DNA of 36,844 nt from a virus: the IMG/VR virus record IMGVR_UViG_3300044825_001259, positions 1 through 36,844 of that record. The stretch is one strand, 5' to 3'. This document shows positions 1 to 36,844 of this stretch, one piece after another. Below the pieces are notes generated by a model. It was given only the letters and a program-made list of their open reading frames with translations, made no database searches and was not told the origin of the DNA. The position numbers and the translations under genes were made by a program. Each line of letters begins with the position of its first letter. Position 1 is the first letter of the stretch.

Positions 1-162
1 TCATTCGCCAAGCGCGACCGCGATACGTCTTCCTGAAAAACGTCCCAGCTATCACTGGAAGAGGGCTCGACCGCGTTCTTGGGTCGTTGGCCGACCTGGG
101 GTTCGATGCGGAATGGTGCGTGCTATCGGCAGCCGACGTCGGAGCTCCTCACCTCCGAAAGC
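1..162. repeat. Terminal direct repeat, left copy (circular-assembly overlap)
   Basis: Bases 1-162 match bases 36683-36844 in the same orientation at every position except base 36 (A here, G at 36718). The methyltransferase reading frame runs straight from the right end into this copy (307 + 995 = 1302 nt, divisible by three). This indicates a circular or circularly permuted genome opened at an arbitrary point. It is more likely an assembly overlap than a biological terminal repeat, because the cut falls inside a gene. Unit length would be about 36,682 bp. Confidence 0.9.
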
Positions 163-995
163 GCTGGTGGTGTCTTGCTAGGGACACCTCTCGCAACGAC
201 GCGGACGCGCTCGCCGGCATTTCGCAAAGGCAGGACCCCGAACCTGCAGGAAATGGCGGAATCTTGGCCGACTCCCAGAGCGCGCGATGCGCAACCGGAG
301 GGCATAGAAGCAGGTCTGCGGCGGATGGATCAATACTCGACTTGCAGCCTGAATACGAAGGTCCAGCTATGGCCGACTCCTGCCAAGAGCGAGCCCGGCT
401 GGAAGAATCTGCACGTCGTCGACAAAGCGGGGCTAGTGCCTCAGCATCCGAACCAGCGTTTCTACGACGCGAAGACGGGCCGATGCGTGCAGAAAGGGCT
501 GGAGCAAATAGTCCTGCTATTTCCGACTCCGAGAGCCTCCAAAACTGGGGACGAGGACGAGGCAGCATGGATGGCGCGGAAAGCAGCGGGAAAGGTCTCG
601 ACGCCTCCGCTGTCACTGGCTGTGCGGATGTTGCCGACGCCGACGACGCAGGACGCGAACAACAACGGCAGCCCGACATGCAATGCGCACCCGGGCACGA
701 CCCTGACGGACTACGTCCGCGAGGACGGTGGGACGGGGCGCCAGGATGCGCAGCCGGATCCGCCGAAACTCAACCCCGAGTGGGTCGAGCTGCTGATGGG
801 CTGGCCTCGTGGCTGGACGCAGGTCGACGGCTACACGGCACCGCGTGGCAGGAGGGCTGGGAGGACGACTGCCCGCGCGTCGTCACCGGAAAACCCGCCA
901 ACCGCACAAACCGACTGAAAGCGCTCGGCAACGGGCAGGTCCCGCAGACGGCCGCTGCCGCGTTTCGCATTTTGTGGGAGCGACTGCACCGATGA
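1..995 (+). CDS. Cytosine-C5 DNA methyltransferase, C-terminal part (continues from 36376)
   Basis: This is the 3' part of a C5-cytosine methyltransferase whose start is at 36376; joined across the junction it encodes 433 aa. Visible here are the motif VI neighbourhood (reads YVFLKNVP in this copy, YVFLENVP in the right copy), the stretch VGAPHLRKRWW (motif VIII type, xRxR), a long variable middle, and motif X-like LKALGNGQVPQ near residue 411, followed by an Ala-rich helix. The variable middle (about 220-700) holds the target-recognition region and repeats short ADS/ADA/SDS units. The enzyme would transfer a methyl group from S-adenosylmethionine to C5 of cytosine, probably protecting phage DNA from host restriction. 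The stop overlaps the RusA start (ATGA at 992-995). The K at the ENV glutamate position is probably an error of this end of the contig. The family call is firm; the recognition sequence is unknown. Confidence 0.9.
   Translation, partial: IRQARPRYVFLKNVPAITGRGLDRVLGSLADLGFDAEWCVLSAADVGAPHLRKRWWCLARDTSRNDADALAGISQRQDPEPAGNGGILADSQSARCATGGHRSRSAADGSILDLQPEYEGPAMADSCQERARLEESARRRQSGASASASEPAFLRREDGPMRAERAGANSPAISDSESLQNWGRGRGSMDGAESSGKGLDASAVTGCADVADADDAGREQQRQPDMQCAPGHDPDGLRPRGRWDGAPGCAAGSAETQPRVGRAADGLASWLDAGRRLHGTAWQEGWEDDCPRVVTGKPANRTNRLKALGNGQVPQTAAAAFRILWERLHR
37..918 (+). CDS. Overlapping +1-frame ORF, C-terminal part (PTP-repeat protein inside the methyltransferase gene)
   Basis: In the +1 frame of the methyltransferase an ORF runs from ATG 36506 across the junction to a stop at 916-918 (364 aa using the right-end bases). 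It carries four spaced units: WPTPRARD (265-288), LWPTPAKSE (367-393), LFPTPRASK (517-543) and MLPTPTTQDANNN (628-666). It ends with LNPEWVELLMGWPRGWT (769-819). Phage-encoded proteins with repeated W/L-PTP-x-A-x-D units and a terminal LNPxWVExLMGxPxGWT block are familiar to me from phage annotations, often labelled hypothetical or cytosine methyltransferase. In this left copy TGA at 34-36 interrupts the frame; the right copy has TGG. Either this is a truly overprinted gene or a byproduct of the conserved methyltransferase frame. No function is assigned. Confidence 0.5.
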   Translation, partial: KTSQLSLEEGSTAFLGRWPTWGSMRNGACYRQPTSELLTSESAGGVLLGTPLATTRTRSPAFRKGRTPNLQEMAESWPTPRARDAQPEGIEAGLRRMDQYSTCSLNTKVQLWPTPAKSEPGWKNLHVVDKAGLVPQHPNQRFYDAKTGRCVQKGLEQIVLLFPTPRASKTGDEDEAAWMARKAAGKVSTPPLSLAVRMLPTPTTQDANNNGSPTCNAHPGTTLTDYVREDGGTGRQDAQPDPPKLNPEWVELLMGWPRGWTQVDGYTAPRGRRAGRTTARASSPENPPTAQTD

Positions 996-34719: not shown

Positions 34720-35019
34720 ATGCGAAACGCTGCACACCTACACCGCACGACCGACCCCGAAACGAGCCGGCAAGCTGCCGAGCTCGCCGCCGGCATTGCC
34801 GACGCGCACGAGAACCGGATTCTCTGGACGCTTGAGAAGGCCGGCCGCCGCGCCGATGCGGCGATGACGGCCGAGGAGATCGCCGAGGCCTGCGGTCTGA
34901 CCGCGCACCAGGTCGGCCGCCGCGTCGGCCGGCTGATCCTGCAGGGCAAGGTCGAGGTCGTCGGCTCGAAGGTCTTGTCGACCGGCCGCGCCGGCCGCAC
35001 CTACCGGAGGACGCGCTGA
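34720..35019 (+). CDS. Winged-helix protein (99 aa)
   Basis: A 99-aa protein with ETSRQAAELAAGIADAHENR and ILWTLEKAG, a helix-turn-helix MTAEEIAEACGLTAHQVGRR, then VGRLILQGKVEVVGSK forming the wing. This is a typical MarR/ArsR-like winged-helix outline seen in small phage proteins near recombination genes. It probably binds DNA. Its stop overlaps the ERF start (TGATG). Confidence 0.65.
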   Translation: MRNAAHLHRTTDPETSRQAAELAAGIADAHENRILWTLEKAGRRADAAMTAEEIAEACGLTAHQVGRRVGRLILQGKVEVVGSKVLSTGRAGRTYRRTR

Positions 35020-35666
35020 TGCAGGCGCTACTGCAGGCGCTCTGCGCCGCCGTGCCGGACATCAGCAACCCGCGCAAGGACTCCAAAAACCCGCACTACC
35101 GCAGCACCTACGCGAGCCTCGAGGCCGTGCTCGATGCCGTGACGATCCCGCTGCAGAAGCACGGGCTCGTCCTGACGCAGACGCTCCGCAGCTCTGCCGG
35201 CGCGGTCGAGCTGGTCACGACGCTCTGGCACGCCGAGAGCGGGCAGCACATTGAATCCGCCGTGCCGCTCAATCCCGCGAAGGCCGACCCGCAGGGCGTC
35301 GCCGCCGCGACGACCTACTACCGCCGCCTGGCAATCAAGACGCTACTGGGCCTCGCCGAGGTCGACGACGACGGCAACGAGGCGAGCTCGCCGCCGCGCG
35401 CGAGAACGGAGCACGCCGCACCGGCTGCAGCTCCGGCGCCTGCAACGATCCCGAAGGCCGTGCAGCAGGTCGTCGAGAAACTCGGCGGCGAGCAGGTCAC
35501 GACGCCGGCGAGCGAGGTCGTTGCGAAGATGCTGAAGGCCAAGACGATCGTCGAGCTCGAGGAGCTGACGACGCACGCGCGAACGCTCGACACCGCCGGC
35601 AAGCAAGCCGCGCGCGCTGCCTACAACGCTCGGCGCTCGGTCCTGCAGCGCGAGGTCGAAGCATGA
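35019..35666 (+). CDS. erf: ERF-family single-strand annealing protein
   Basis: A 215-aa protein with ERF hallmarks: NPRKDSKNPHYRSTYASLEA, PLQKHGLVLTQTL, LWHAESGQHIES, PQGVAAATTYYRRLAIKTLL, GLAEVDDDGNEAS. The C-terminal part beyond residue 130 is Ala/Pro-rich linker plus a helical tail. ERF proteins anneal complementary single strands, allowing genome circularisation and recombination-dependent replication, as in P22. With RusA (992) it provides annealing and junction resolution. The start overlaps the winged-helix stop. Confidence 0.9.
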   Translation: MQALLQALCAAVPDISNPRKDSKNPHYRSTYASLEAVLDAVTIPLQKHGLVLTQTLRSSAGAVELVTTLWHAESGQHIESAVPLNPAKADPQGVAAATTYYRRLAIKTLLGLAEVDDDGNEASSPPRARTEHAAPAAAPAPATIPKAVQQVVEKLGGEQVTTPASEVVAKMLKAKTIVELEELTTHARTLDTAGKQAARAAYNARRSVLQREVEA

Positions 35667-36219: not shown

Positions 36220-36383
36220 GCGCAACGCCGACCGACGACGAGCTGCGCATGCTGCGCGCGACGTATGAGCACTGCCGCCGATGGGCGCATGCCGGCGTCG
36301 TCGGCGCGAACGCCGTGACGCTGATCGCCGCGCTCGACGAGCTATTGGTGCGCCGTGCTGCGGAAAGGAAACCAGATGCGTGA
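36216..36383 (+). CDS. Small helical protein (55 aa)
   Basis: A 55-aa protein (DDELRMLRATYEHCRRWAHA; ALDELLVRRAAERKPDA), all helix, overlapping the upstream stop by four bases and the methyltransferase start by eight. No family is recognised. Its end contains the AAAGGAA that serves as ribosome site for the methyltransferase. Confidence 0.5.
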   Translation: MSATPTDDELRMLRATYEHCRRWAHAGVVGANAVTLIAALDELLVRRAAERKPDA

Positions 36384-36844
36384 GCTGCACCTATTCGCAG
36401 GCGCCGGCGGCGGCATTCTCGGCGGCATGCTGCTCGGACATACTCCGGTCGGCGCTGTCGAGATTGACCCGTTCGCGCGCGCTGTTCTACACGCAAGGCA
36501 GGCCGATGGATCACTACCAGACTTCCCCATCTACGAAGACGTCCGAACCTTCGACGGCACCGCATGGCGCGACCGCGTCGACATCATCGCCGGAGGATTC
36601 CCATGCCAGGATCTGTCCTGCGCAGGAAAAGGAGCAGGCATCGACGGCGCACGCTCCGGCCTCTGGTGGGAAATGCTCCGCGTCATTCGCCAAGCGCGAC
36701 CGCGATACGTCTTCCTGGAAAACGTCCCAGCTATCACTGGAAGAGGGCTCGACCGCGTTCTTGGGTCGTTGGCCGACCTGGGGTTCGATGCGGAATGGTG
36801 CGTGCTATCGGCAGCCGACGTCGGAGCTCCTCACCTCCGAAAGC
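36376..36844 (+). CDS. Cytosine-C5 DNA methyltransferase, N-terminal part (continues at base 3)
   Basis: This is the start of the methyltransferase, MRELHLFAGAGGGILGG, with motif I FAGAG (SAM binding), acidic EID at 29-31, motif IV GGFPCQDLSCAGKG with catalytic Cys77, and motif VI FLENVP with Glu115, which protonates the cytosine ring in this family. ATG 36376 is preceded by AAAGGAA. The reading frame crosses the contig end and continues at base 3. The gene lies at the end of the early operon, just before rusA. A lone methyltransferase without a restriction partner is typical of phage self-protection. Confidence 0.93.
   Translation, partial: MRELHLFAGAGGGILGGMLLGHTPVGAVEIDPFARAVLHARQADGSLPDFPIYEDVRTFDGTAWRDRVDIIAGGFPCQDLSCAGKGAGIDGARSGLWWEMLRVIRQARPRYVFLENVPAITGRGLDRVLGSLADLGFDAEWCVLSAADVGAPHLRK
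36506..36844 (+). CDS. Overlapping +1-frame ORF, N-terminal part (PTP-repeat protein inside the methyltransferase)
   Basis: ATG 36506 begins MDHYQTSPSTKTSEPSTAPH in the +1 frame of the methyltransferase. AAGG (36495-36498) lies seven bases upstream, and AGG at 36500-36502 lies closer, so it could initiate by itself. The segment includes DSHARICPAQEKEQAST, SSWKTSQLSLEEGSTAFLG and RWPTWGSMRNGACYRQPT, of the form S-A-R-x-S-x-A-x-E-x-x-Q and SSWKTSQxSLxEGxxxFxGxWPxxGxMRNGxxY that I associate with the same phage protein group as the PTP units downstream. The frame stays open through the junction. It may be a real second product or a shadow of a conserved gene. Confidence 0.5.
   Translation, partial: MDHYQTSPSTKTSEPSTAPHGATASTSSPEDSHARICPAQEKEQASTAHAPASGGKCSASFAKRDRDTSSWKTSQLSLEEGSTAFLGRWPTWGSMRNGACYRQPTSELLTSES
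36683..36844. repeat. Terminal direct repeat, right copy (circular-assembly overlap)
   Basis: Matches bases 1-162 except at 36718 (G here, A at base 36). This copy keeps motif VI Glu (GAA) in the methyltransferase frame and Trp (TGG) in the +1 frame, so it is the more likely true sequence. Confidence 0.9.

Follow-up and report, generated by a model that had tools for sequence, protein, structure and literature searches.

An overprinted +1-frame protein in a phage C5-cytosine methyltransferase gene is predicted to be the recognition subunit of a split enzyme

The window, the whole stretch of 36,844 nucleotides analyzed here (IMG/VR record IMGVR_UViG_3300044825_001259), carries a C5-cytosine methyltransferase gene that runs across the junction of its two ends. 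The frame 0 product is called alpha, and the protein read from the same bases in the +1 frame is called beta (Table 1). The ends were joined by a 162-bp terminal overlap showing a single mismatch. The A at position 36 changes motif VI of alpha from ENV to KNV and creates a TGA stop in beta; the G of the 3' copy leaves both frames intact. The mismatch reflects either an error in sequencing or a genuine variant that inactivates the gene, and the reading of both proteins was built with the 3' copy. The first-pass annotation had placed the start of the feature at position 37, which only approximates the point from which the +1 ORF is open again in the end copy bearing the A. The ORF itself, described there as running from ATG 36506 through the junction to the TGA at 918 and encoding 364 residues, was confirmed by translation, and all the sequence blocks quoted from it are present in beta. 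An ERF-family recombination protein (PF04404, E = 2.3e-21) is encoded upstream of the methyltransferase, at 35019–35666. On the 3' side, the gene at 992–1441, whose ATG overlaps the alpha TGA, has a start that we take to resemble that of a RusA-type resolvase.

Table 1. Coordinates of the alpha and beta reading frames and of their motifs in the window.
Feature	Coordinates	Strand	Details
Alpha gene, first part	36376..36844	+	ATG 36376; resumes at 163-995; 433 aa in total
Alpha motif I FAGAGG	36394-36411	+	translation
Alpha motif IV GFPCQ	36595-36609	+	translation
Alpha motif VI ENV	36718-36726	+	translation
Alpha gene, second part	1..995	+	1-162 repeats 36683-36844; new sequence from 163; stop 993-995
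Alpha motif VIII GAPHLRKR	141-164	+	translation
Alpha region, largely passenger	about 165-918	+	shuffle test, substitution classes, AlphaFold of L039
Alpha-frame block QPRVGRAADG	771..800	+	out-of-frame image of beta motif IX; similarity accounted for by beta-synonymous shuffles
Alpha motif X LGNGQVPQ	924-947	+	translation
Beta gene, first part	36506..36844	+	ATG 36506; overlaps alpha motifs IV-VIII; ATG kept in nearest relative L039
Beta N-terminal block SSWKTSQLSL	36710-36739	+	translation
Beta block GRWPTWGSMRNG	36764-36799	+	translation
Beta gene, second part	163..918	+	TGA 916-918; dNN/dNS 0.12 here across homologues
Beta, four PTP units (proposed target-recognition region)	starts 265, 370, 520, 631	+	translation
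Beta motif IX LNPEWVELLMGWPRGWT	769-819	+	translation
Terminal overlap	1..162	n/a	identical to 36683-36844 except A36/G36718

Alpha matched the Pfam family PF00145 (E = 4.8e-36) over residues 2–194 only. The motifs I, IV (PCQ), VI (ENV), VIII and X were all present in the window alpha, which carries motifs I–VIII plus X. Motif IX (LNPEWVELLMGW) is missing from alpha and present in beta, and alpha does not combine a motif IX pattern and a target-recognition domain in the same chain. AlphaFold was run on the alpha of a close relative, locus L039, the first 156 residues of which are 97% identical to those of the window alpha. Residues 1–180 of this model mostly had a pLDDT of 74–97 in ten-residue blocks, falling to 60 around residues 80–90; residues 183–417 were below 50, and the motif X end was again confident (78–96). 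In a Foldseek search, the model matched M.HaeIII and M.HhaI over their catalytic domain only. Three frame 0 blocks had been noted as family signatures of the enzyme. VGAPHLRKR and LGNGQVPQ are genuine methyltransferase motifs (VIII and X, respectively), but PRVGRAADG is the image of beta motif IX in the other frame; over the bases encoding the PTP units and motif IX of beta, frame 0 reads PRVGRAADG, ADS and similar strings. L039 lies on IMGVR_UViG_3300037502_002277, the nearest relative of the window, where a second, different alpha/beta locus (L034) is found about 5 kb away.

In beta, four PTP units are followed by motif IX, where LNPEWVELLMGWPRGWT aligns in sense and position with the methyltransferase motif (compare LTPRECARLMGF in E. 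coli dcm). Beta had no family match in Pfam and NCBIfam. It matched phrog_1008, a phage family named "DNA methyltransferase", with E = 1e-33 over positions 34–207 of the 329 of the profile, and so did all 81 aligned betas. The motif X end of alpha matched the same profile further along. These matches were the first hint that beta is part of the enzyme. A profile search against solved structures found none, and the AlphaFold model of beta was poor (pLDDT 56, pTM 0.23), so that the fold of the PTP region and its recognition role are argued from position and selection rather than from structure. Between L039 and the window (165–760), PTP units were gained or lost as whole blocks, which suggests recombination of recognition modules in a manner keeping both frames open.

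The +1 frame of the window is open for 407 codons, whereas synonymous shuffles of alpha average 176 (p = 0.005). Viral contigs were gathered by alpha only or by beta only, and among the 148 non-redundant genes tested against synonymous-codon shuffles, 115 had p ≤ 0.01 in the +1 frame. With the 94 non-redundant viral homologues selected by alpha only, this level was reached by 75 in the +1 frame and by none in the +2 frame, and the median +1 run was 0.99 of the alpha length. As controls, five of 156 flanking ORFs had p ≤ 0.01, and E. coli dcm, whose motifs IX and X share a frame, gave p = 0.77. This monomeric enzyme took the role for which homologues devoid of beta had been expected: the four candidates sorted as lacking a +1 frame through motif VIII (L063, L066, L084 and L242) all proved on inspection to contain beta, which begins later in three of them and is broken by a stop in the fourth. 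The +1 frame also stays open in homologues at 42–55% GC. A Paenibacillus-type set (42–56% GC) gave 24 of 25 in the openness test, and +1 frames of 177–298 codons lie at the same place, with the same blocks, in GenBank phages of Acinetobacter, Paenibacillus, Porphyromonas, Bacteroides and others at 40–57% GC. By a strict pattern, motif IX was found in the +1 frame of 113 of the 148 genes and in alpha of three. Conversely, of 71 bacterial and archaeal loci selected by beta, 70 had an overlapping alpha frame; only L309 departs from this, a copy with interrupted frames in which the alpha motifs are still readable. PCQ and EN were present in the overlapping alpha frame of 69 of the 71, and in L340 the frame shows EN, VIII and X, the PCQ pattern being absent.

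Shuffles in which one protein was held constant indicated which frame is constrained. When codons were exchanged synonymously for alpha, the real beta similarity after motif VIII exceeded that of all shuffles in 138 of 147 cases (median z 10), and before motif VIII in 103 of 147 (z 2.9). With beta held constant, the similarity of alpha after motif VIII was not lowered (median z 0.5; 12 of 110). Selection was estimated for each frame, as the first-pass annotation had proposed, by a simplified OLGenie-like count that classed each substitution by its consequence in the two frames, over 74 disjoint pairs which share ancestry and were counted without a tree. The beta dNN/dNS was 0.12 (0.09–0.15) after motif VIII and 0.54 (0.44–0.68) before it, compared to 1.51 (0.79–2.67) for the +1 frame of the flanking genes. 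For alpha, dNN/dSN was 0.08 before motif VIII and 0.28 after. After this motif, beta codons vary most at their third position. Beta is under purifying selection and the constraint switches frame at motif VIII. Beyond this point the alpha frame behaves for the most part as a passenger, devoid of extra similarity and with an AlphaFold pLDDT below 50; it retains some constraint (0.28–0.46) and may not be wholly passive.

The border between the two frames is not the same in all relatives. In an automatic sort of distinct loci by patterns, which miss divergent members, 181 loci were of the window type, with IX in the +1 frame and X in alpha, 22 had both IX and X in beta, and six had both in alpha with a +1 frame open nonetheless. 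For the remainder, X was unsettled in 10, 35 were left unsorted by the patterns, four lacked a +1 frame through motif VIII and three were cut off. Inspection by eye of L315, L328, L344 and L346 showed an alpha ending after motif VIII and a beta with PTP, IX and X in a single chain. The pairs gp6/gp5 of Mycobacterium phage Catdawg and 067a/067b of Arthrobacter phage ArV1, annotated as two genes, belong to this type with IX and X in beta. Streptomyces phage Raleigh and its relatives have IX in alpha, yet their PTP region remains in the +1 frame under selection, the NN/NS of beta being mostly 0.1–0.4 in non-independent pairs. It is mainly because the PTP region is constant in the +1 frame across all types that we call it the recognition part.

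The first ATG of beta lies four nucleotides after the alpha start in 58 of 110 homologues, commonly as ATGAATGAG. In the window, the GTG at 36380 would be a possible start of this Acinetobacter type, but it is disfavored, the nearest relative L039 being closed there. L039 keeps the ATG matching 36506 and its +1 frame is shut by a TGA at the alpha start; ATG 36506 is therefore the preferred start.

Several explanations were weighed against these data. A conserved GC-rich methyltransferase gene might leave an open and similar +1 frame without any product. Long +1 runs are indeed common at 64–73% GC, and by openness alone L033 (p = 0.67) and Raleigh (p = 0.36) do not stand out, but the frame persists open at 42–55% GC, synonymous shuffles abolish the similarity of beta, substitutions changing beta are depleted relative to flanking genes, and after motif VIII it is alpha which behaves as the shadow. 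Synonymous changes in alpha that freely alter beta and add stops, named by the first-pass annotation as evidence against a second protein, were looked for and not seen. Its argument that the shared +1 blocks are more than GC-rich openness agrees with the shuffle test of the window, the phrog_1008 match and the open frames at lower GC, and an empty frame is hardly credible. Beta could also be a genuine overprinted protein with a job of its own, such as anti-defense or regulation, and the lack of a Pfam family and of a recognizable fold would fit. This is very improbable given that the motif IX missing from alpha lies in beta, that 22 loci have a single beta chain with both IX and X, that IX is back in alpha in Raleigh-type phages, and that beta practically always comes with alpha. 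The anti-defense role once suggested for beta found no support beyond methylation itself.

A programmed frameshift would remove the need for a separate beta: translation starting on alpha would shift to +1 after motif VIII and produce a fused I–VIII–PTP–IX chain. The change of constrained frame near motif VIII is in line with this, and in the 22 loci with IX and X in beta a single shift restores the canonical order I–VIII–IX–X. However, the beta frame upstream of motif VIII is itself selected (0.54), beta start codons are conserved and often lie four nucleotides after that of alpha, and the topology of the window would require a second shift back to add X. In Catdawg and ArV1, moreover, beta is annotated with its own start, 209–266 nucleotides before the alpha stop. 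Frameshifting is accordingly considered unlikely.

Both frames are under selection, alpha and beta are almost always found together and their motifs are complementary. From comparison of the sequences, we consider it highly likely that the locus encodes a split C5 methyltransferase in which the subunit for recognition and motif IX is overprinted on the catalytic subunit. In this model, alpha would provide the SAM-binding and catalytic domain (motifs I–VIII), with the C-terminal motif X attached through a non-conserved, probably disordered linker. Beta, presumably translated separately from ATG 36506, would supply motif IX and the PTP-repeat region, most likely involved in DNA target recognition. 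The two would associate into the full enzyme and methylate the phage DNA. As no neighboring restriction enzyme was noticed, the purpose is most likely the evasion of host restriction. The proposal of the first-pass annotation, an overprinted partner or specificity factor, is supported by the purifying selection on beta, its excess similarity, the co-occurrence in 70 of 71 loci and the completion of the alpha motif set by IX.

The arrangement is present in hundreds of phages and prophages, for which the annotation usually gives one of the two proteins; GenBank records show alpha only, beta only or both. In Pseudomonas phage phPA-G (L357) and Vibrio phage 1.236.O (L359), beta alone is annotated, as a hypothetical protein, and the methyltransferase frame is unannotated. 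In Mycobacterium phage Llama (L007, 2435–3194), the alpha frame shifts in the middle of the gene, which breaks both frames at once, and two "DNA methyltransferase" genes are annotated. In a prophage of E. coli PCP07014 (L428, 1501–2262), alpha and beta have stops at the same place and RefSeq describes a pseudogene with an internal stop. Many entries named "DNA cytosine methyltransferase" or "hypothetical protein" would be one half of a pair, and a prediction of specificity from the variable region of alpha would rely on passenger sequence. On balance, we favor the existence of a very large and mostly unrecognized family of phage enzymes with a recognition subunit overprinted on the catalytic one, in which the border moves between lineages, recognition modules are exchanged in lengths keeping both frames open, and the N-terminal half of beta was created by overprinting on motifs IV–VIII. 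A dual-coded enzyme conserved in many phages and prophages would open overprinting to laboratory study by an easy assay, methylation.

Two-polypeptide C5 methyltransferases are known, including M.AquI (CYCGRG) and M.EcoHK31I (YGGCCR) (PMC3404938). In M.EcoHK31I, motifs I–VIII and X are on the large subunit, together with the target-recognition domain, and only IX is on the small one (PMC3404938). This enzyme is the closest precedent, with the same motif split as the window. Its small-subunit gene is reportedly nested in another frame of the large-subunit gene. The window differs by the place of recognition, as alpha after motif VIII is passenger-like and beta holds the conserved variable region (dNN/dNS 0.12), the two systems being compared by description. 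In M.AquI, the catalytic and recognition/IX subunits are separate chains, and beta bears IX and X along with half the recognition region (PMC3404938). The window resembles it in separating the catalytic and recognition/IX chains, but both IX and X are on the small subunit of M.AquI, whereas alpha keeps X in the window. The M.AquI-like split was found in the 22 relatives such as L315, L328, L344 and L346, yet overprinted. The name of phrog_1008 is silent on encoding in the +1 frame within a PF00145 gene; its profile also spans motif X, consistent with members having IX and X in beta. Both overlapping ORFs are already in the deposited annotation of Paenibacillus phage Shelly (g55/g56, "g55 internal gene"), Catdawg (gp6/gp5) and ArV1 (067a/067b). 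A limited open-access search found no literature account of this phage family as overprinted, nor of the overlap in these three phages. Two-polypeptide C5 methyltransferases are thus known, and what would be new is a phage family in which the very probable recognition half is overprinted on the catalytic half.
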